Notes under the pieces: generated by a model
The model's input: only the letters and a program-made list of their open reading frames with translations
The model's database searches: none
Told to the model about the DNA's origin: nothing
NCBI GenBank assembly: GCA_001604045.1
Contig: LVAN01000013.1
Coordinates: 22,179-86,178 of the forward strand
DNA: 64,000 nt
DNA from: Clostridiales bacterium Firm_08
GTDB taxonomy: Bacteria; Bacillota; Clostridia; Oscillospirales; QAKW01
Reading direction: 5' to 3'
Position numbers and translations under genes: made by a program
Shown: in pieces, positions 26,911 to 58,840 of the stretch
Layout of the letters: each line of letters begins with the position of its first letter
How positions within the stretch are numbered: the first letter of the stretch is position 1

Positions 26911-26944
26911 ACCAAAAAGGTTCCCGTCAGGGAACCTTTTTGGT
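26911..26944. terminator. Terminator hairpin, left copy of a 34-bp direct repeat
   Basis: accaaaaaggttccc-gtca-gggaacctttttggt; identical to 27211-27244. Confidence 0.85.
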
Positions 26945-27210
26945 CAGCGTGTCAAAGAACCTCTTTGACACGCTGACAGACTGCAAAAAAGGAAGTTGCA
27001 TTTCGCAGATAGAACTTCGTCGGCGTACGTGGGTACGGTAGAGGTTCTATCTGCGGAAAACAGAGAAAAGCCTTGCGGCGCAAGGCTTCCTTGGATGAGA
27101 ACATTTGTTTTTCTCAGTTTTGATTTCGGGTTTTGAACTTTCCCGAAAACGAAACTATTTAAAACTATGTTTCTGTTTCTCTGTGGTGAAACGACTTTTT
27201 TGACAGTCTG
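26945..27210. mobile_element. Putative non-autonomous structured (RNA) element, copy 1, inserted between duplicated terminator hairpins
   Basis: Same ordered motifs as 50876-51243; flanked by 34-bp perfect direct repeats; terminal stem cagactg/cagtctg; no significant ORF. Confidence 0.65.
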
Positions 27211-27244
27211 ACCAAAAAGGTTCCCGTCAGGGAACCTTTTTGGT
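27211..27244. terminator. Terminator hairpin, right copy of the 34-bp direct repeat
   Basis: Identical to 26911-26944; lies just downstream of trxB (minus strand). Confidence 0.85.
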
Positions 27245-43048: not shown

Positions 43049-44209
43049 ATGGATAATACTGTTCAGAAAGATACCGCTTTACTTTCAGAAGAAGATCGCG
43101 AAGATGAAGTGTTGCAACTCGCAGAAAATGAGAATATTGAACAAGATCAAAAAGAAGCGGTAGATAATGAGTTTGCCAAAAAAAGAGCGTTGCTTCAAAA
43201 AACTAAAATTGTGCGACAAACCTGGTCTATTTCTGAAATCTATCAGAAAATAAAGGACAAAAAACTAATCCTTGACCCTGATTATCAAAGACGGGAAATA
43301 TGGAATAATGAGAAAAAAACTGCGTTTATTGAATCTCTCTATATGGAAATAATGATTCCGCCGATTTACGTTGTCGAGATACCGGGTGAAGACATTCTTG
43401 ACGAAACAAGATATGAAGTAGTTGACGGCAAACAACGTCTAACGGCAATTATGGATTTCATTAAAGGTTCGCTTAGACTCAATGAGAGAAATCTTGAATA
43501 CTATTCGGACATTTTTGGTGGAAAAACCTTTTCTGAAATACGTGAAATCGATTCTGAAAAGACATCTCAAATGCTTTCTTCAATACTTGATATATATGTT
43601 ATTACTGCAAATTCTCCGGAGTTTACAAAGTACGATATCTTTGCCCGTTTAAATCGTGGTGCCGAAAAACTCAAAGTAAACGAGATAAGAAGGGCAATTT
43701 ATAAGTCAAAGATACTAGGATGGATTACGGAATATGTTGATAACCAGCTAAAGAATCACAAAGAATCATATGCGTCTATTTTCTCTAAAAACGATATAAA
43801 GAGATATGAGGATTATGGACGTATGTATAGGTCTCTTGCTTTTTTCATACGCTCAAACGTTGAAGATGAAATAGTAGATGGATACAATTCAAGGCCTCGT
43901 GATATGATAAATACCGTTTTGCAAGAGATTCAACGTGGGAAAGTCACCATTGAAAAAGATAAGCTAATGCTTATTCTTGATAAAACTATACAGTTGATGA
44001 GAGCATTTGCGGGAGCACCAAACGGTGATTATGTAATTGATTCTATTATCCCATTTGTGAATCAATTTGACGGAGTATGCGACGAAAAAATTGCTAAGGA
44101 GATCTTCGAAAACGAGGAAATAAAGAAAACTCTTGAAAAATCACCAGCTACAACGAGCAATGTAAACAAACGGTTTGCTCTTGTCAAACAGCTCATAATG
44201 GAGAAATAA
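43049..44209 (+). CDS. DUF262 domain-containing protein
   Basis: LILDPDYQRREIWNNEKKTAFIESLYMEIMIPPIYV and YEVVDGKQRLTAIMDF, ParB-like DGQQR-type motif. Confidence 0.88.
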   Translation: MDNTVQKDTALLSEEDREDEVLQLAENENIEQDQKEAVDNEFAKKRALLQKTKIVRQTWSISEIYQKIKDKKLILDPDYQRREIWNNEKKTAFIESLYMEIMIPPIYVVEIPGEDILDETRYEVVDGKQRLTAIMDFIKGSLRLNERNLEYYSDIFGGKTFSEIREIDSEKTSQMLSSILDIYVITANSPEFTKYDIFARLNRGAEKLKVNEIRRAIYKSKILGWITEYVDNQLKNHKESYASIFSKNDIKRYEDYGRMYRSLAFFIRSNVEDEIVDGYNSRPRDMINTVLQEIQRGKVTIEKDKLMLILDKTIQLMRAFAGAPNGDYVIDSIIPFVNQFDGVCDEKIAKEIFENEEIKKTLEKSPATTSNVNKRFALVKQLIMEK

Positions 44210-44210
44210 A

Positions 44211-44810
44211 ATGGGAACAATTACGGGAATAGATCAGGAAACACTGTCTCTTCAAATCCGATCTCTTATGGTGTATGGCTTTCTTGACGAATACAACCGG
44301 CTCGAAAGAACGATACGAAACGTATTTGAAGATAGTATTGAAGTTTTGCCAGCAAATTTCAAGCAACAACTTTATTTTTATTACGGTGGAAAAATCGGAA
44401 CATATATTGAATATGAGTCTCAAAGTATAAAAATAAAGGAATTGAACTATACCGAGAAGGAGAATTTTAAGGATTTTTCAATAAATCAAATAATTAAGAT
44501 ATTCAAAAACAACAAGAGTTTGGAGCGTTTCAATTTTTCAATAGAATCGATCCAACGACCAACAATTATTTTTCCTTTTTATGATTGTATTATTCGATTA
44601 CTTAATATGCGAAACAAATTGGCACACGAAGTAGCCGAGTTGAATTTTAAGGATGGTGATCTCGTTGAACTTCTATCGCCTGAACAAATAGCTCAAGAAC
44701 CATTTGTTTTGCTTCAGAGTTATGATCTGCTAAAAATGGATGAGATGACACAGTATATAGCGAGTAATATAATATATATACGTAAAATCATTACAATGTT
44801 AGCAAATTGA
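44211..44810 (+). CDS. HEPN-like domain protein (Rx4H motif)
   Basis: 199 aa helical protein with MRNKLAHEV (RNKLAH), 1-nt gap from the DUF262 gene. Confidence 0.55.
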   Translation: MGTITGIDQETLSLQIRSLMVYGFLDEYNRLERTIRNVFEDSIEVLPANFKQQLYFYYGGKIGTYIEYESQSIKIKELNYTEKENFKDFSINQIIKIFKNNKSLERFNFSIESIQRPTIIFPFYDCIIRLLNMRNKLAHEVAELNFKDGDLVELLSPEQIAQEPFVLLQSYDLLKMDEMTQYIASNIIYIRKIITMLAN

Positions 44811-45274: not shown

Positions 45275-45418
45275 TTAGATCAAGATATCGATTCGGATAT
45301 CTTTCCACTGGCTGACTTTGAAGTGGTGGACGCTCGGTGCGGTTTTGATAAACTCGCGGGCGTACGCCTCATCAATGGTCAATTCAGCGATTTTTAAGGG
45401 CGTTTTGGTTTCGTTATT
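45275..45418 (-). other. Tail-peptide copy A: NNETKTPLKIAELTIDEAYAREFIKTAPSVHHFKVSQWKDIRIDILI*, no ATG
   Basis: Similar to copies at 55335-55465 and 58920-59037; follows the TAATAA stop of the SLH gene. Confidence 0.6.
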
Positions 45419-48400
45419 ATGCTAAATTCCTGGCATTGTAGAGGAACTGCACGATCTGGGAGCGGGTGCATTTTTTCGTCGGACTGAAGTGCGTGGCGTC
45501 CGTGCCTTTGGTAATGTTGTTTTCGACCGCCCAGAGCACCGCGCCGTAGAACCAGTCGCTGCTCTTCACGTCGACGAACGGATTGACCTTGGACTTGGCC
45601 GGAGTGTTGCCCTTGGTGTTCCAGATAAACTGCACCACTTCCGTGCGGGTACAGGCCTTGCTTGGGCTGAAATGGGTCGCATCCGTGCCGGCGGTGATGT
45701 TGTTTTCGACCGCCCAGAGCACCGCTTTATAGTACCAGTCGCTGCTCTTTACGTCTACAAACGGATTGGTCGAGCTCTTCGGCGCGGGGTTGCCAGCCGC
45801 ATTATAGAGGAACTGCACCACTTGTGCGCGGCTGCAATCGAGGTACGGGCTGAAATGAGTTGCGTCCGTGCCGCTGGTGATCGGGGGATGCTGATTTACG
45901 GCCCAGAGCACCGCGTCGTAGAACCAGTCGCTGCTCTTTACGTCGACGAACGGATTTTCCGGTTTTTCCACCGGCGGATTCACCGCGGGCTGTTCGATCA
46001 GCTCGGGAACGCGGGGATCACCGATCTCCACGCCCTCGGCGAGCGTCGTGCCGTTGGCTTGGTAAACGCCGTCCGCTTTCATCACGCCGTCCGCCGGGGT
46101 GATCAGCGAGCAGTCGGTGAGGGTGAAGCTCTTGAAGCCGGTGATATGACCGTCGACCTCCACCTCACTGTTCTTGATGATCAGGCGGTGGTTGCTGCCT
46201 AAAAACGATCCGATGATGCCGCAGCCGACCGTTTTGATCCTGGCGGATTCGATCGTGACCGTTTCACCGGTGCCGTACGCCAGAATTCCGGAGGTCTGAG
46301 TGCTGTTCAGCGTGAGGGTGCCGGGGCCGGTGATGGTAATATTCTTACTGGTAGCGATCGTGTTGTCGCTGGTGCGGAGGGTGCTGTCACCCGCCACATA
46401 GATCGTGAGATCGGGAATGCTGTTCCAGATCGTAATATTCTCCGCCGTAGAGCAGTTGCCGTTCACGGTGAGAACGTTCTTTTCAGGATCGTAGGAGAAA
46501 ACGCCGTTGCGCAGCACGTCGGGCGCATTCTGGACGTCTACCTGGGTATTGGCGATCGAAAGCGAGTATTTCTTCACGTTGCCGATCACGACCTTCTTCG
46601 CCGCATCGCCGGTATGATCGTTATAAAGCATACCGCCGGTAAAGGTGGTGGAAGCCGGCTCGGTGATCTCGCAGTTTTCAAGCGTCAAACCGCCGGAAAG
46701 ATCGGAAACGGCTTCGGTATCGACGTCGATCAGCACCTTGCTGCCCTTCACGATGACTTTTTCATCTTTTCCGCTGGGAGCATAGCCGCTGATGCCGTAC
46801 GAGCCGCGGATCTCCACGTTCGCGCGATCGATGGTAACGGTGGCGCCGTTTTCGATGGAGAGAGTGGTAAAATCTTCATTCTCGTTGACCATCGTGATCT
46901 TATAGGTGCCGGTGATGGTGAGATCCTCCGTCGCTTCAAGCACCGACCATTTTTTGGTGGTCAGCGTAACGTCTTTATCCGCCGTGATCGTAAGGCCGGG
47001 ATCCTCGGAGCGGATAAGGGTCGAGTTGCTATCGATTGCATAGTCGTCCTTCACGTGGAGCGTATTCGTCTTTACGTCGTAGGAGAAGACGCCGTTGCCA
47101 AGAACATCCCAGGCGTTGCTGCTCGAAACGCTGTTGCCGTTGATCCAGATCCCGTAGCTCGTATACTCCGGCGCGCCGATGGTGACCTCTTTGGCGTCCG
47201 CGCCTCCCGTTTCCACGATCGCGCCGTTTTTGACCTTCGCGCCCGCGGGCTCGTTGATCTCGCAGTTGAAGAAGGTGAGCCCTTTATCAAAGCCGTAGAC
47301 CGCTTTGTTCTGGCTCGCAATGCGGATCGTGCTGTTGCGGATATTGAGTCCGGCGTGATTCAAGCCGTAAATACCCTGATTACCGCTGATTTCGAGATTT
47401 GCGTTTTCGATATTCAGCGTGGCGCCGTCGTAGACCAGAATGCCGTTGACCGAGCTGCTCGCCAGCGTGAGCTTGCCGGGGCCGGTGAGCGTCATATCCG
47501 CGTCGGTGGCGATCACGTTGTCGCTTGTGGAAAGGGTACGCGCGTAGCGGTTATAGACGGTAAGGCCGGGGATATGGTTCCAGATGATGATCCCTTCCGC
47601 GCGCTCGCAATAACCCTGCACGGTCAGTTTGTTTTCCGCGGCGTCGTAAATGAAGTTCCCGTCGCCCAGGATATCGGGCGCGTTCGCGCTCGTTACCCGT
47701 ACGCCGGCAACACGAAGGTCGTATTTCAAAACGTCAATGGCTACGCTTGCGGCAAGCGTCGAACCGTTGGATTCATAGATACTGCCGTTTTTATTGACCG
47801 CATTATTCGGCACGGAGATCGTGCAGCCGGTGATGGTGATGCTTTTGAAGTTTTCAACGTTTCCGTCCACGTGCACTTCGCTGGTATTGACGATCAGAGC
47901 CGGCTGACCTCCCGCCAGGGCGCCGATATCGCATCCGATCGTTTCTATGACGGCGTGGTCGATGGTCACCGTTGCGCCGTTATACACCGTGATGCCGTTC
48001 GTGGCGGTGCTGTTCAGCGTAAGTTTCCCCGGACCGGTGATCGTCATATTCTTACCGGCGGCGATCGTGTTATCGCTGGTGGTGAAACGGCTGTCTTCCG
48101 CCACGTAAAGGGTAAGACCGGAAATGTTGTTCCAGACCGTAATATGCTCCGCCGTGGTGCAGTTGCCGCTCACGGTGAGTTTATTCTCCGTAGGATCGTA
48201 AGAGAACACGCCGTCGCCCCGGATGTCCGAGGCATTGGCGCAGGTCACCTGCGTGCCCGCGATCTCAAGGTCATAATTCTGATCGATCGTTACGTCGTTG
48301 GCGACGGTGCTGTCGTTTTTCAGCACGGCGCCGCCCTGGATCTTTGCGTCCGCCGGTTTGGTGATGCGGCAGTTCTGCAGATCGATCGAGGCAAAGCCGC

Positions 48401-50729
48401 TGATCGCGGCGGTCGAGTCTCCGTGCACCTTCACGGCGCTTTCGCGGATGACCAGCTTATCGGGACCGTGGCCTACAATGCCGTAGTTATTGCCGCTCAC
48501 GTCGAGCCGGGCGTTTTCAAGCGTAACGGTTGCGCCCTGCTCCACGTAGAACGCGGCGTTCGTGCTTCTCAGGGTGAGCTTGCCCGGGCCGGTGATCCGG
48601 ATATTTTTATTTGTATGGATCGTGGAGAAGGTGGAAACGAGCCTTGCATCCCACTTCACGTAAACGGTAAGATCGGGGATGCGGTTGGCGATCATATACT
48701 GATTCCCGCATTCAGCGTCGTCTTCCACGGTCAGGGTATTGGTTTCGGGATCGTAGGAGAACGCGCCGTCGCCCAGGATATCAAAAGCGTTTGCGGTCGT
48801 TACCTTTGTGCCGGCGATATAAAGCTCGTATTCCTCCGGCACGTCGATCAGGATCTCGGGAGCGGTTTTTCCGCTCTTATTCTTAACGGTGCCTTCAACG
48901 ACTTTGCCGCCGGCGGGCGTAAAGAACGCGCAGCCCTCCAGCGTGATGCCGCCGTAGAAGCCTTGAACCCCGCCGGATTCGAACACCTGGGGATTGCCGT
49001 TCGCGGCGTGTACGCGGCTGTTACGGACCGTCAGCTTGCTCGTGGAGCCGGAAGAGCCATGGATACCGGCGAAGTAGCCCGTCGCATCCAGATCAGCGCC
49101 GTCGACCGTTACGGCGGCGCCGGTGTCCGCAAAAATACCGTACTGGTCGCGGCTGCGGAGCGTAAGCTTGCCGGAACCGGTGATCTTCATATCGGCCGAA
49201 GTGAGGATCACGGACTGGTGGGCGCTGAGCGTGACGCTTTTCGCCGCGCGGACCGTGAGCCCTTTGATCTTATTCTTGATAACGTTGACGTAGCCCTCGG
49301 CGGAGCAGTCGCCGTTTACCGTGAGGGTATTGGACGACTGGTTGTAGGCGAAAACGCCGTCGCCCAGAATATCGTCCTGATTTCCGCCCGTCACCTGCAC
49401 GTCTTTGACCCAGAGATCGTATTCTTCCCGCTCGATGTGGACCTTGTTGGCAACAGTGCCGCCCGCTTCCACGATCTTGCCGCCCTGGATCTTGCCGCCC
49501 TCCGGCTTTCTTATCGAGCAGTTCTGCAGAGTGATCCCGCCGTTAAAGTTGGCGATCGAATCTTTTTCGGTAACAAGATAGACACGGCTGCCGCGTATGA
49601 CGAGTTTTTCACCGGTATTGCTGCCGGAAAGCCCGTAATAGGTATTTTCGATAACAATGTTTTCGACTCTGCCGTTATCGACGGTCAGCGTAGCGCCGTT
49701 CGTCATCTTTACAGCGCATGCGCAGTCTCCGGGACTATACGTACCGGGGCCGGTAAGTGTAAGATTCTTGCTGGAGAGGATCGCGGGGGCGCCGTCGCCG
49801 GTGTCCCATCCGGTTCCTCTGAGGTAACATAAACGTACGAACCGGATCGTAAGACCGGGGATCTCGTTCCGGACCGCGCTGTACCCGCCCGGGTTCATCC
49901 ATTGAACGCCGATTTCGTCAAACGTGAGCGTTTTCGTTGCGTCGTCGTAGCAAGCCACGCCGTCGCCCAGAATATCGTTCCGGTTTCTGCCGTTGACGCG
50001 AACGCCGCAGACCCAAAGATCATAAGGATTTGCCGGGGTGGTGGGCTGGATCAGGGCCTGCTCCGCCACGTTGCCCTTCGCGTCTTTGATATATCCGCCG
50101 CCGACCACGCCGCCGACCGGATCGGAGATCCCCACGTCATAGAACACGATCCCTTTGGTGAAGTTTGAGATCGCGCCGTTGGATTTGCTCTTTTTGGCAA
50201 AAACCATACTGTTTGTAATGACCAGCTGGGAGCCGCTCTTATGGGCGACAATGCCGCCGTTCGTGCCGTACGCTTCCACAAAAGCGTCCCGGATATGCAG
50301 CGATGCGCCGTTCGTCAGCCAGATGCCGCAGCCGAAGTCTCCCCGGGTGTACAGCCGGCCGGGGCCGGTGATCGTAAGATCCGCAGTGGATATGATCCCG
50401 CTCGGATTGGAGGAGAGATTCTTGTAGCGCCATCCGTTCACGGAGGAATAGCTTTTCACGTAGATCGTCAGCCCGGGGATACCGTTGGCGATCGCGTCGG
50501 CGTCCGTCAGCGAGATGTGCGCATCGTCAAGCGTCAGCTTGTTTTCCGCGGGGTCGAACGAAACGGTTGCTCTTTCTTGCCCCAATATGTTCGTTCGGTT
50601 CTCGCTTGTGACCTGTACACCTTCAACAAATAGGTTGTACCTCGTGACCGCGGCGACCGCGGGCACCGCCGGCAGCAGTGAAAGCAGCATTGCCAGCACA
50701 AGTACCAGAGACAGGATCCTTTTTTTCAT
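45417..50729 (-). CDS. Giant SLH-domain surface protein with eight ~190-aa beta-helix-like repeats
   Basis: 1770 aa; signal peptide MKKRILSLVLVLAMLLSLLPAVPAVAA; eight Y(D/E)L.(I/V).G..V...NA.DILGDGVFSYD...N.LTV repeats; three SLH repeats (NPFVDVKSSDWFYDAVLWAV). Confidence 0.88.
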   Translation of the reverse strand: MKKRILSLVLVLAMLLSLLPAVPAVAAVTRYNLFVEGVQVTSENRTNILGQERATVSFDPAENKLTLDDAHISLTDADAIANGIPGLTIYVKSYSSVNGWRYKNLSSNPSGIISTADLTITGPGRLYTRGDFGCGIWLTNGASLHIRDAFVEAYGTNGGIVAHKSGSQLVITNSMVFAKKSKSNGAISNFTKGIVFYDVGISDPVGGVVGGGYIKDAKGNVAEQALIQPTTPANPYDLWVCGVRVNGRNRNDILGDGVACYDDATKTLTFDEIGVQWMNPGGYSAVRNEIPGLTIRFVRLCYLRGTGWDTGDGAPAILSSKNLTLTGPGTYSPGDCACAVKMTNGATLTVDNGRVENIVIENTYYGLSGSNTGEKLVIRGSRVYLVTEKDSIANFNGGITLQNCSIRKPEGGKIQGGKIVEAGGTVANKVHIEREEYDLWVKDVQVTGGNQDDILGDGVFAYNQSSNTLTVNGDCSAEGYVNVIKNKIKGLTVRAAKSVTLSAHQSVILTSADMKITGSGKLTLRSRDQYGIFADTGAAVTVDGADLDATGYFAGIHGSSGSTSKLTVRNSRVHAANGNPQVFESGGVQGFYGGITLEGCAFFTPAGGKVVEGTVKNKSGKTAPEILIDVPEEYELYIAGTKVTTANAFDILGDGAFSYDPETNTLTVEDDAECGNQYMIANRIPDLTVYVKWDARLVSTFSTIHTNKNIRITGPGKLTLRSTNAAFYVEQGATVTLENARLDVSGNNYGIVGHGPDKLVIRESAVKVHGDSTAAISGFASIDLQNCRITKPADAKIQGGAVLKNDSTVANDVTIDQNYDLEIAGTQVTCANASDIRGDGVFSYDPTENKLTVSGNCTTAEHITVWNNISGLTLYVAEDSRFTTSDNTIAAGKNMTITGPGKLTLNSTATNGITVYNGATVTIDHAVIETIGCDIGALAGGQPALIVNTSEVHVDGNVENFKSITITGCTISVPNNAVNKNGSIYESNGSTLAASVAIDVLKYDLRVAGVRVTSANAPDILGDGNFIYDAAENKLTVQGYCERAEGIIIWNHIPGLTVYNRYARTLSTSDNVIATDADMTLTGPGKLTLASSSVNGILVYDGATLNIENANLEISGNQGIYGLNHAGLNIRNSTIRIASQNKAVYGFDKGLTFFNCEINEPAGAKVKNGAIVETGGADAKEVTIGAPEYTSYGIWINGNSVSSSNAWDVLGNGVFSYDVKTNTLHVKDDYAIDSNSTLIRSEDPGLTITADKDVTLTTKKWSVLEATEDLTITGTYKITMVNENEDFTTLSIENGATVTIDRANVEIRGSYGISGYAPSGKDEKVIVKGSKVLIDVDTEAVSDLSGGLTLENCEITEPASTTFTGGMLYNDHTGDAAKKVVIGNVKKYSLSIANTQVDVQNAPDVLRNGVFSYDPEKNVLTVNGNCSTAENITIWNSIPDLTIYVAGDSTLRTSDNTIATSKNITITGPGTLTLNSTQTSGILAYGTGETVTIESARIKTVGCGIIGSFLGSNHRLIIKNSEVEVDGHITGFKSFTLTDCSLITPADGVMKADGVYQANGTTLAEGVEIGDPRVPELIEQPAVNPPVEKPENPFVDVKSSDWFYDAVLWAVNQHPPITSGTDATHFSPYLDCSRAQVVQFLYNAAGNPAPKSSTNPFVDVKSSDWYYKAVLWAVENNITAGTDATHFSPSKACTRTEVVQFIWNTKGNTPAKSKVNPFVDVKSSDWFYGAVLWAVENNITKGTDATHFSPTKKCTRSQIVQFLYNARNLA

Positions 50730-50831: not shown

Positions 50832-50856
50832 ATTTCGGCAGTTTTGCGTAAAAAAA

Positions 50857-50874
50857 GCCTCCCTGCCGGGAGGC
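50857..50874 (-). terminator. Terminator hairpin, one of two near-identical copies flanking element copy 2
   Basis: gcctccctgccgggaggc, preceded on + by aaaaaaa (U tract on minus). Confidence 0.75.
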
Positions 50875-50875
50875 G

Positions 50876-51243
50876 CAGCGTGTCAAAAAACCTTTTTGAC
50901 ACGCTGGCAGACTGCAAAAAAGGAAGTTGCATTTCGTCGAACCGTTCTCGTCGGCGTACATCCCACCCGAAAAAAATGACTATTTTTTTCGGAAGAGGAG
51001 ATGCAAAGTCGCAAAGCGATAGGCTTTTTTGTAAAAAAGCCTGCGCTCATCGGCTTTTGCATCGACGAACGGTAGAGAGCGGTTCGGCGGAAAACAGAGA
51101 AAAGCCTTGCATCGCAAGGCTTCCAAAGATTAGATTATTGTTTTTGACTATAATGGGTATATATTGTGTTCTGTTCTGTAAACGGAACTTTTTTATCTTA
51201 TATTTGATTTTCTCTGTGGTGAAACGACTTTTTTGACAGTCTG
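50876..51243. mobile_element. Putative non-autonomous structured (RNA) element, copy 2
   Basis: Same hairpin B, P1, P2 and P3 helices and conserved blocks as 26945-27210, plus a ~103-nt expansion of the P2 loop. Confidence 0.65.
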
Positions 51244-51244
51244 A

Positions 51245-51262
51245 GCCTCTCTGCCGGGAGGC
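51245..51262 (-). terminator. Terminator hairpin, second copy flanking element copy 2
   Basis: gcctctctgccgggaggc, one mismatch to 50857-50874; lies downstream of the NarL-type regulator. Confidence 0.65.
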
Positions 51263-55681: not shown

Positions 55682-56008
55682 GTGGCAAAAAAAGAATATG
55701 CTGAGGGAAGTTTCGGCGCATTTTTCGTCAAGCTTATTAAAGAGCATGATTATTCACAAGCGAGATTTGCTTCGGACCTGGGCGTTTCTAAAACCTATCT
55801 GTTCGATGTGTTCAATGGTCGAGTTAAACCACCCACCCCTGAAATGCAAGACCGTATTATTGAACTTTTGCAGCTTTCTGATGACGAGAAGGCACTGTTT
55901 TACAGCAAAGCTGCGGATGGACGTCATGAACTTCCAAAAGATGTTGTCGAATTTCTGAAAAATAATCAAACTGAGATAAACAAACTTAGAGAAAGAATGA
56001 GGGCGTAA
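55682..56008 (+). CDS. XRE-family HTH regulator, candidate R-M controller protein (GTG start)
   Basis: YSQARFASDLGVSKTYLFDVFNGRVKPPTPEMQDRIIELLQ. Confidence 0.8.
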   Translation: MAKKEYAEGSFGAFFVKLIKEHDYSQARFASDLGVSKTYLFDVFNGRVKPPTPEMQDRIIELLQLSDDEKALFYSKAADGRHELPKDVVEFLKNNQTEINKLRERMRA

Positions 56009-56010
56009 TT

Positions 56011-57873
56011 ATGGCAAACGAAACAAAAACATATGCTATTTTCCGAGATATGCTTAGGGGCAAAGGCTATTATGACGATAAAGATATCGTTGTTGAAGAG
56101 CAAAAAAGCGATAATGCAAAAATCGACAAATTGTTAAAAAACGCCTCTAAAAAGGGGAACAAAAACGGATATCCCGACTTTATTCTGTATTCAAAAGCTT
56201 ATCCTGAATTGATAATTGTTGTAGAAGCTAAAGCAGATATAAATAAACACGAGAGTGAAACACGAGATAATTACGCTGACTATGCGGTTGACGGAGCATT
56301 GTTATACGCCTCCTTCTTGTCAAAAGAGTTCGATGTACTTGCAATAGGCATTAGCGGAGAGGAAGAACACCGATTTAAGATGTCCCATTATCTTCACCTT
56401 AAAGAAGATAAAAAAGCAAATCCAATATTTGATGATATTCTATTAACTGTAAACGAGTATTTTGATGGCATCAATCAGAGCAACTATAAATTCAATCAGG
56501 ATTATGCAAAATTAATTGCTTATACGAAAACTCTAAACGAGACACTTCATGCAAAGAAAATCAAGGAATCTCAACGTGCCCTGCTCATAAGCGGAATTTT
56601 GATTGCGTTGAAAGACAGAGCTTTTAGAGACGGATATAAAAAACACGAAAAAGTAACACAACTGGTTAAGTCTCTATATACCGCTATAGAAGGACAACTT
56701 TCAAGTGGTGATATTCCTCAAAAGAAAATAGATGTTCTAACACAGGCATTCAGTTTTGTTAAGACAAATCCTACGTTGACTGATGCCAAAACAGGAAAAA
56801 AGTTTCTTGAAGACCTTATTGACGAGATTGACCGTGAAATTAACGGTTTTATGGTTACACATCAGTATGTAGATACTGTCAGTCAATTTTACATAGAGTT
56901 TTTAAGATATGCCAATAATGATAAAGGTCTTGGTATTGTATTAACTCCACCTCATATTACAGATTTATTTGCAGAATTAGCTGATGTCGATAAAAGCAGT
57001 GTAGTATTGGATAACTGTTGCGGAACAGGTGGCTTCTTGATTAGCGCTATGAAGCGCATGTTAATTGATGCCAAGGGCGACCAAGCAAAAGAAAAAGACA
57101 TCAAGGGAAAACAGTTGATTGGCATTGAATTCCAAGATGATATTTATACTCTTCTCATTTCAAATATGATTATTCATCGAGATGGCAGAACAAATATTTA
57201 TTGGGGAGACTGTTTCAAAGAAATCGATGACGTTAAGAAAAATTTCAAGCCAACTGTTGGCCTTTTGAATCCGCCATATAAAACTAAGGCTGCAGACATT
57301 GAGGAGTTTGAGTACATCCTAAATAACCTTGATGCATTGGAACCGGGTGGTACATGTATAGCTATTATTCCTATCAGTTGTGTTATTGAAAAGACAACTA
57401 TTGCGGAAAACCTCAGAAAGAGAGTTTTAGAAAAACATACTCTCGAAGCTGTGCTTTCTATGCCCGAAGAACTTTTCCATAATTCAAAAGTTAACACGGT
57501 TACCTGTGCTGTAATTATAACCTCCCACAAGCCTCACCCAAAAGGCAAGAAAACATGGTTTGCGTATTGCCGTGATGACGGATTTATTAAAATGAAAAAC
57601 AAAGGACGTATTGATGCTAATCATACATGGAACGACATTCGGGATAGATGGGTTTCGGCGTTTAGAAATCGTGAGATAATTGACAAATTCAGTCTAATGC
57701 GCGAGGTAAGTGAAAAAGATGAATGGTGCGTAGAAGCTTATCTTGAAACAAATTATGATGAATTCTCTTTTCAGGATTACGAAACTACAGTTAAGAAATA
57801 CCTTATGTTTAACTTTATGGATATGACTGATATATCAAGAGGTGACGAGCAAGATGAAGACATGCAAGATTAG
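56011..57873 (+). CDS. Fused restriction nuclease / N6-adenine methyltransferase (BcgI/HsdM-like)
   Basis: N-terminal GYPDFILYSKAYPELIIVVEAKAD (PD-ExK); VVLDNCCGTGGFL; GLLNPPYKTK. Confidence 0.87.
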   Translation: MANETKTYAIFRDMLRGKGYYDDKDIVVEEQKSDNAKIDKLLKNASKKGNKNGYPDFILYSKAYPELIIVVEAKADINKHESETRDNYADYAVDGALLYASFLSKEFDVLAIGISGEEEHRFKMSHYLHLKEDKKANPIFDDILLTVNEYFDGINQSNYKFNQDYAKLIAYTKTLNETLHAKKIKESQRALLISGILIALKDRAFRDGYKKHEKVTQLVKSLYTAIEGQLSSGDIPQKKIDVLTQAFSFVKTNPTLTDAKTGKKFLEDLIDEIDREINGFMVTHQYVDTVSQFYIEFLRYANNDKGLGIVLTPPHITDLFAELADVDKSSVVLDNCCGTGGFLISAMKRMLIDAKGDQAKEKDIKGKQLIGIEFQDDIYTLLISNMIIHRDGRTNIYWGDCFKEIDDVKKNFKPTVGLLNPPYKTKAADIEEFEYILNNLDALEPGGTCIAIIPISCVIEKTTIAENLRKRVLEKHTLEAVLSMPEELFHNSKVNTVTCAVIITSHKPHPKGKKTWFAYCRDDGFIKMKNKGRIDANHTWNDIRDRWVSAFRNREIIDKFSLMREVSEKDEWCVEAYLETNYDEFSFQDYETTVKKYLMFNFMDMTDISRGDEQDEDMQD

Positions 57874-58840
57874 TGATTTGTTTTTAGTTGATTACGGAGT
57901 AGACCTTGAATTGAATGCATTAGAAAAAGATATTAATGGCATCAATTTTGTGTCTCGAACCTCTAAAAACAATGGTGTTTCTGCGAAGGTTAAGCAGATA
58001 GCAAGTATTGAACCACTTCCGGCAGGAACAATTACTGTTGCGTGTGGTGGGTCTGTAATGGAAGCGTTTTTGCAAATGTCTCCATATTATTCAGGAAGAG
58101 ATTTGTACTATCTAAGACCAAAATCGGATATGAGCAACGAAATTAAACTTTATTATTGTCATTGCCTTCGTTCAAATAAATATAAATACTCATACGGGCG
58201 GCAGGCCAATGTCACATTACCAGACTTACTCGTTCCAACTCTAGACAGCATACCTGATTATGTTTTCGCAATGTCTTTAAAATACTACGGCGAAACTTTA
58301 ATAAAGCAAACCGAATTTCCCAGAGATAATTCAAATTATCCGCCAAACGCAAAGTCTGTTCCTTTGGAAAAATTATTTGTTGTTGAGAACGGAATAGCCT
58401 CGTCGCAAGTCGTAAGAAGCGAAGAAAAAGAAAGCGAAAACTGGGTTCCATATATCAGACCGTCATATAGACAAGAAACCAGCATAGATGCCTTTGTTAA
58501 TAAAAAACTTGTTTCCGAAGACAAACTATTCCCCGCTGGAACTCTTTATGTTTCGACCGACGGTCAAGGCAGTCACACTTTTTCCTATGTTTCCACATTT
58601 GAATTTGTTCCTAATAGCAATGTTTCCGTTTTGATACCTCGTCGAAAGATGAGTTTGCAGGAAAAACTGTATTATGCTCAATGCATAACTAACAATAGAT
58701 ATAAGTTTTCCTATGGAAGAAAACCTAAAGGTGACAGACTAAAAAAAGTGCGTTTGCCCGAATACCCACCAAAATATGTAACAGATTATACTATTGATAA
58801 AGTGGTAAGTAGTTTTTTTGAGGTTTTGAATATCGTGTAA
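57842..58840 (+). CDS. Specificity (S) subunit
   Basis: Two TRD-like halves ending YKYSYGRQ and YKFSYGRK; overlaps the methylase end. Confidence 0.82.
   Translation: MTSKMKTCKISDLFLVDYGVDLELNALEKDINGINFVSRTSKNNGVSAKVKQIASIEPLPAGTITVACGGSVMEAFLQMSPYYSGRDLYYLRPKSDMSNEIKLYYCHCLRSNKYKYSYGRQANVTLPDLLVPTLDSIPDYVFAMSLKYYGETLIKQTEFPRDNSNYPPNAKSVPLEKLFVVENGIASSQVVRSEEKESENWVPYIRPSYRQETSIDAFVNKKLVSEDKLFPAGTLYVSTDGQGSHTFSYVSTFEFVPNSNVSVLIPRRKMSLQEKLYYAQCITNNRYKFSYGRKPKGDRLKKVRLPEYPPKYVTDYTIDKVVSSFFEVLNIV

Follow-up and report, generated by a model that had tools for sequence, protein, structure and literature searches.

The window analysed here, a 64,000-nucleotide stretch of Clostridiales bacterium Firm_08 within which all positions are counted, carries two copies of a short mobile element. 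Sequence comparison indicates that it is very probably a non-autonomous member (MITE) of the IS1182 family of insertion sequences, one in which an RNA core is conserved. Judging by its flanks, it enters terminator hairpins and copies each of them in full, so that a copy of the element comes to lie between two terminators. The first-pass annotation had recognised a repeated, structurally constrained element; that it is mobile was a point absent from that account.

The element and its copies

All the parts listed at first pass for the second copy are present, the P2 arms included (Table 1). The span then reported, 50857-51262, comprises the element and its flanking target duplications; with these excluded, the element proper is 50876-51243, or 368 nt, and copy 1 is a short form of the same element. 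The blocks described as conserved do not differ between the copies, the P2 loop indeed measures 6 nt in copy 1 and 109 nt in copy 2, and the hairpin called 'B' has a G-C pair in copy 1 where copy 2 has A-U. When the chance of the long conserved blocks recurring exactly was gauged, none of 100 shuffles yielded two matches, and the RNA folds of copies 1 and 2 reach z = -11.6 and -11.9 against dinucleotide shuffles, with no shuffle as good. The pair of copies seen in the window belongs to a genome total of about 14, counted by BLAST as 13 copies that are complete or nearly so, together with two fragments, in an assembly of 1.72 Mb in 70 contigs that is 86% complete.

Table 1. Features of the two element copies in the window
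Feature	Positions	Strand	Remarks
Copy 1 left target-site duplication	26911-26944	none	34-bp terminator hairpin
Copy 1	26945-27210	+	short form, 266 nt
Copy 1 right target-site duplication	27211-27244	none	same sequence as left
Copy 2 left target-site duplication	50857-50874	none	terminator hairpin gcctccctgccgggaggc; T-run on minus strand, 50850-50856
Hairpin A	50876-50906	+	left transposon end CAGCGTGTCAAAA, then its inverted copy
P1 5' strand	50908-50922	+	CAGACTGcAAAAAAG, inner copy of terminal repeat
P2 5' arm	50935-50946	+	
Conserved P2 tip, 5' side	50949-50959	+	CGTCGGCGTAC
Long-form P2-tip insert	50960-51068	+	two hairpins flanking purine linker AAGAGGA; G005 architecture similar
Conserved P2 tip, 3' side	51069-51077	+	ACGGTAGAG
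P2 3' arm	51078-51089	+	
P3 5' strand	51094-51102	+	ACAGAGAAA
Hairpin C	51104-51120	+	GCCTTGC/GCAAGGC, within P3
P3 3' strand	51209-51217	+	TTTCTCTGT
P1 3' strand and right transposon end	51228-51243	+	CTTTTTTGACAGTCTG
Copy 2 right target-site duplication	51245-51262	none	terminator hairpin gcctctctgccgggaggc

Copies in this genome fall into two length classes, one of about 266-270 nt with a P2 loop of 4-6 nt and one of about 370 nt with an insert of about 105 nt in that loop; across all loci, elements range from 228 to 394 nt. Since copy 2 (C27b) and the copy C19 are 98% and 95% identical over the two flanks outside the loop and yet belong to different length classes, the P2 loop appears to be a module that can be exchanged. 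In the relative G005 the long form has a layout similar to that of copy 2 (a hairpin, the linker AAAAGGAG, a second hairpin, then GACGCACGGTAGAG), which suggests that the long P2-tip insert is an old alternative module. Within the long tip, a match to the c-di-GMP-I-UAU riboswitch (50993-51054; E 0.08, 20.6 bits against a gathering threshold of 65.9) was rejected because the long tips of G005 have a different hairpin at that place.

Insertion into terminator hairpins

The first-pass annotation was right that near-identical terminators flank copy 2, the two differing by one base; it missed their identity as target-site duplications. Exact flanking repeats of at least 12 bp (12-38 bp) surround 57 of the 68 elements for which both ends and flanks were in hand, and most of the remainder are still bounded by hairpins on both sides. 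In the window's genome, all complete copies are preceded on the left by a hairpin belonging to their locus, and for nearly all there is a second on the right; most of these pairs are direct duplicates. Among 147 sites from the fetched loci, 67 have direct repeats of at least 14 bp, nearly all of them complete hairpins, and a blind scan of 1.4 Mb for palindromic direct repeats returned chiefly these elements. The loci are unrelated to one another and the duplicated hairpins are specific to each. With the end-hairpin pattern as many as 27 copies are counted in a relative, and none with the reversed control pattern. A search of relatives with the window's flanks for an orthologous empty site found none, the matches being mostly to the element itself.

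Two observations concern the history of individual insertions. Locus L053 has on its right flank the hairpin that bounds L070 on the left within one genome, and some mismatched flanking pairs of this kind look like products of recombination between copies. At L161 (4479, minus strand), 3' of the motif, a second, divergent element with the tip CCGAAGGCGTAC..GTACGTCGAGAG lies nested in hairpin C of a main-type element.

A probable IS1182-family partner

The element ends read CAGCGTGTC(A/G)AAA.../...TTT(T/C)GACAGTCTG. A search of relatives for the DDE_Tnp_1_6 domain led to three autonomous insertion-sequence loci, L261, L257 and L260, which have CAG..TGTC(A/G)AA ends in common with the elements. 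Two of them are bounded by a whole-hairpin duplication, L261 as hairpin, CAGTCTGTCGAAAAAG...CTCGACAGGCTGa, hairpin and L257 as hairpin, CAGCCTGTCAAAGAAG...TTTTTTGACAGACTGa, hairpin; L260 has the same ends and adjoins a hairpin, the locus running to the edge of the fetched piece. The L261 protein is an IS1182-family transposase (NF033551, E 1.4e-120; DUF772 and DDE_Tnp_1_6). The element thus has terminal repeats together with the target and duplication of the autonomous element, and within it no transposase reading frame was found; neither was an ORF-bearing copy, nor an ORF-bearing version of the same core within 5 kb of elements. Because autonomous IS1182 relatives share both its ends and its hairpin duplications, we read the element as an ORF-less MITE of the IS1182 type, an assignment based on the shared ends and the shared, unusual target. 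The IS1182 transposase domain was not found in the incomplete genome of the window or in most element-rich relatives, many of which are incomplete MAGs; among 22 other hosts, seven have IS1182-domain matches, several of them fragments and two near matching ends (G203, G204).

A quite different origin for these loci, in which a regulatory riboswitch or sRNA of the host underwent duplication as a terminator cassette, would fit the strong conservation across genera and the absence from Rfam. We regard it as very improbable, given the unrelated loci with their locus-specific hairpin duplications, the IS1182-type ends, a nested insertion, and a position that is mostly between convergent genes rather than in 5' UTRs.

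A conserved RNA core

Between the ends lies a P1-P2-P3 three-way junction that covaries. In an alignment of 39 diverse elements the covariation is 0.492, compared with 0.154 +/- 0.009 for shuffles and 0.08-0.11 for shifted partners, with two-sided changes in 12 of 13 P2 pairs and 7 of 8 P3 pairs. Across 107 distinct P2 arm pairs, each position is paired in about 80-96%, and most positions show 4-6 pair types. The loss of P2 in homologues, named at first pass as an outcome that would tell against selection on the fold, is not what is seen; P2 is maintained. Among about 1050 P2 cells, G-U occurs 89 times and A-C only 4, an asymmetry which indicates that the written strand acts single-stranded. 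Together with the covariation it bears out the selection on single-stranded structure first claimed from two copies; most simply, the folding strand would act as RNA. The bias is weak in the outer P1 stem (G-U 21, A-C 10) and in hairpin A (8 and 3), as would suit ends that act as DNA. The outer hairpin and P1 are transposon ends, a point missed at first pass, and pairing there need not reflect RNA function.

Two other explanations of the paired changes deserve attention. The fold might matter as single-stranded DNA, one strand transposing or recombining in folded form with P1-P2-P3 as the recognition structure: the target is itself a DNA hairpin, the ends form hairpins, a strand-specific tolerance of G-T would equally fit one strand of DNA, and a simple scan found no promoter within the element. 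We consider this unlikely, since G-T is as common in P2 as is typical of RNA, and since the scanned autonomous loci share ends and target without the core, which is therefore not needed for IS1182 transposition as such. (The sole strong match to the core among scanned IS1182 loci, at L287, is a separate MITE.) Alternatively, template switching could have matched the arms of a DNA palindrome with no selection on RNA, and the flanking terminators of copies C6b and C2 do show inverted or matched changes. Such correction is very improbable here, as P3 strands more than 100 nt apart covary, the P2 arms differ greatly around fixed, unpaired tip blocks, and G-U so far exceeds A-C.

The P2 tip is nearly invariant across elements, in part by ascertainment, because the main search pattern required it. 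The core also occurs with unrelated ends, at L083 (GGGGCTGTCGCATTTA), L113, L109, L115 and L191, which mostly fold as P1-P2-P3. Conversely, L209, L236-L249 and L062 have the same ends with another class of P2 tip (CGAAGGTGTATATGTATACTCCGAGAGG), and the relative G055 has 23 end hairpins of the kind found with that tip class. Against Rfam 15 no family rises above its gathering threshold; sub-threshold matches vary from copy to copy, and an odd match to a eukaryotic IRES occurs on one locus only (L080). The 5' end of the G183 element, ggggtagctcagttagatgcag, was considered as a sign of tRNA origin and set aside: the segment forms P1 with the 3' end and resembles an IS end. Class-b elements L058, L072, L113 and L179 begin with a string like a tRNA D-arm, ggggtagctcagttaga, which is probably chance within an IS-like end.

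Genomic setting and spread

Convergent genes flank 17 of 52 elements, the most frequent setting, and only 2 of the 52 have co-directional genes on both sides. Where a single gene reads toward the element, it is antisense in 18 cases and sense in 7 (p = 0.04), and the T-runs show no orientation bias (22 vs 19). The convergent setting and the antisense excess do not favour read-through expression of the folding strand, and expression from an upstream gene was rejected on the lack of T-run bias and the slight preponderance of antisense. A cis-regulatory riboswitch was likewise rejected, a sense position upstream of genes not being what these settings show.

By a model of P2, the RNA is present in 27 of the 292 genomes sampled and 22 of 181 genera, in the same class, often with at least 10 copies each. 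Copies also occur in a cultured host, Ructibacterium gallinarum DSM 107454. The tip pattern CGTCGGCGTAC N{3,12} GTACGGTAGA occurs in at least 118 stretches of the public genome set, all of them Clostridia by title among the matches listed. No element match was found in phage and plasmid collections, and an exact scan of viral contigs for the conserved blocks gave none. By the tip pattern, two IMG/VR viral contigs (L197, L198) carry element copies.

Proposed mechanism and role

IS1272, of the IS1182 family, targets hairpins including terminators, and in a published model duplication of a whole stem-loop is one pathway, in which the 3' ends of the element attack the 5' feet of the stem-loop (PMC5678879, PMC4923244). 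On this pattern, and with good support, an IS1182-family DDE transposase would act in trans on the element and join its 3' ends to the 5' feet of the hairpin extruded at the target, after which long-stagger repair would copy the hairpin to both sides. One full hairpin with its T-run would stay at the outer edge, where incoming transcription would still be terminated; insertions would then be nearly harmless.

What the RNA does is a more tentative matter. The element might be transcribed and its P2 tip bound by a widespread protein of host or transposon, in the element's own interest, whether stability or mobility; a protein-binding RNA acting for the element is, we hold with little confidence, the most likely role. 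A bolder proposal, which we judge quite unlikely, makes the core a self-standing selfish RNA module, captured by or recruiting several unrelated IS1182-type end sets and promoting its own mobilisation, the RNA for example binding the transposase or, through the P1 duplex of terminal repeats, keeping the two ends together. Were it true, a DDE transposon would need a non-coding RNA in order to move.

Other features of the window

Elsewhere the window holds a tRNA-Val with a Gut-1 RNA immediately after it (Rfam RF01706; 29173-29350), a protein matching the PADLOC model NsnA (43049-44209; E 1e-49) with a small partner gene (44211-44810), and a Type IIG-like restriction-methyltransferase with its specificity subunit (56011-58840), adjoined by a small HTH-like protein (55682-56008). 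A 1770-aa repeat protein on the minus strand (45417-50729) adjoins copy 2; its C-terminus looks like surface-layer-type repeats.

Relation to known systems

The closest relatives are the IS1182-family insertion sequences (IS1272, TnSha1 and the loci L261, L257 and L260), with the last three of which the element shares its type of terminal repeat. Common to the family and the element is a structural target, palindromes that are often terminators, entered in both orientations. The element differs in having no transposase gene and in its conserved RNA core, which was not found in the scanned IS loci; it also duplicates the whole hairpin, where for IS1272 deletion or replacement of the hairpin is reported, with no duplication. 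Group IIC introns use terminator hairpins as insertion sites and rely on folded RNA. The element resembles them in both respects and is set apart by its DDE-type ends and target duplication; no Rfam intron-domain match was found, and a reverse transcriptase as mobiliser was rejected, RVT_1 not being found in the element-rich genomes G000 (that of the window), G001 and G055.

Pneumococcal BOX, a MITE, going by its published description (PMC3049150), likewise has IS-like ends, a modular middle and terminal repeats that pair in the RNA fold, and is in excess between convergent genes. BOX, RUP and SPRITE are, in that source, found almost only in S. pneumoniae and S. mitis, whereas the present element has a near-invariant internal-loop tip and occurs in many genera; its duplication of a whole terminator has no counterpart in the passages on BOX that were consulted.

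If our reading is correct, an uncatalogued and widespread RNA fold is tied to a transposon family whose hairpin targeting is known and little studied, the whole-stem-loop-duplication pathway is in natural use, and the terminators found in pairs around many short repeats in genomes of gut Clostridia are accounted for. Hundreds of natural variants are at hand for asking why a MITE keeps an RNA fold over long evolutionary spans. Hairpin targeting by IS1182/IS1272 was already known, as were RNA-folding MITEs such as BOX (PMC3049150). The combination of shared core, class-wide spread and terminator duplication was not found in the literature searched. What appears to be new, then, is one RNA core under several unrelated end sets, spread class-wide and joined to the duplication of whole terminators.
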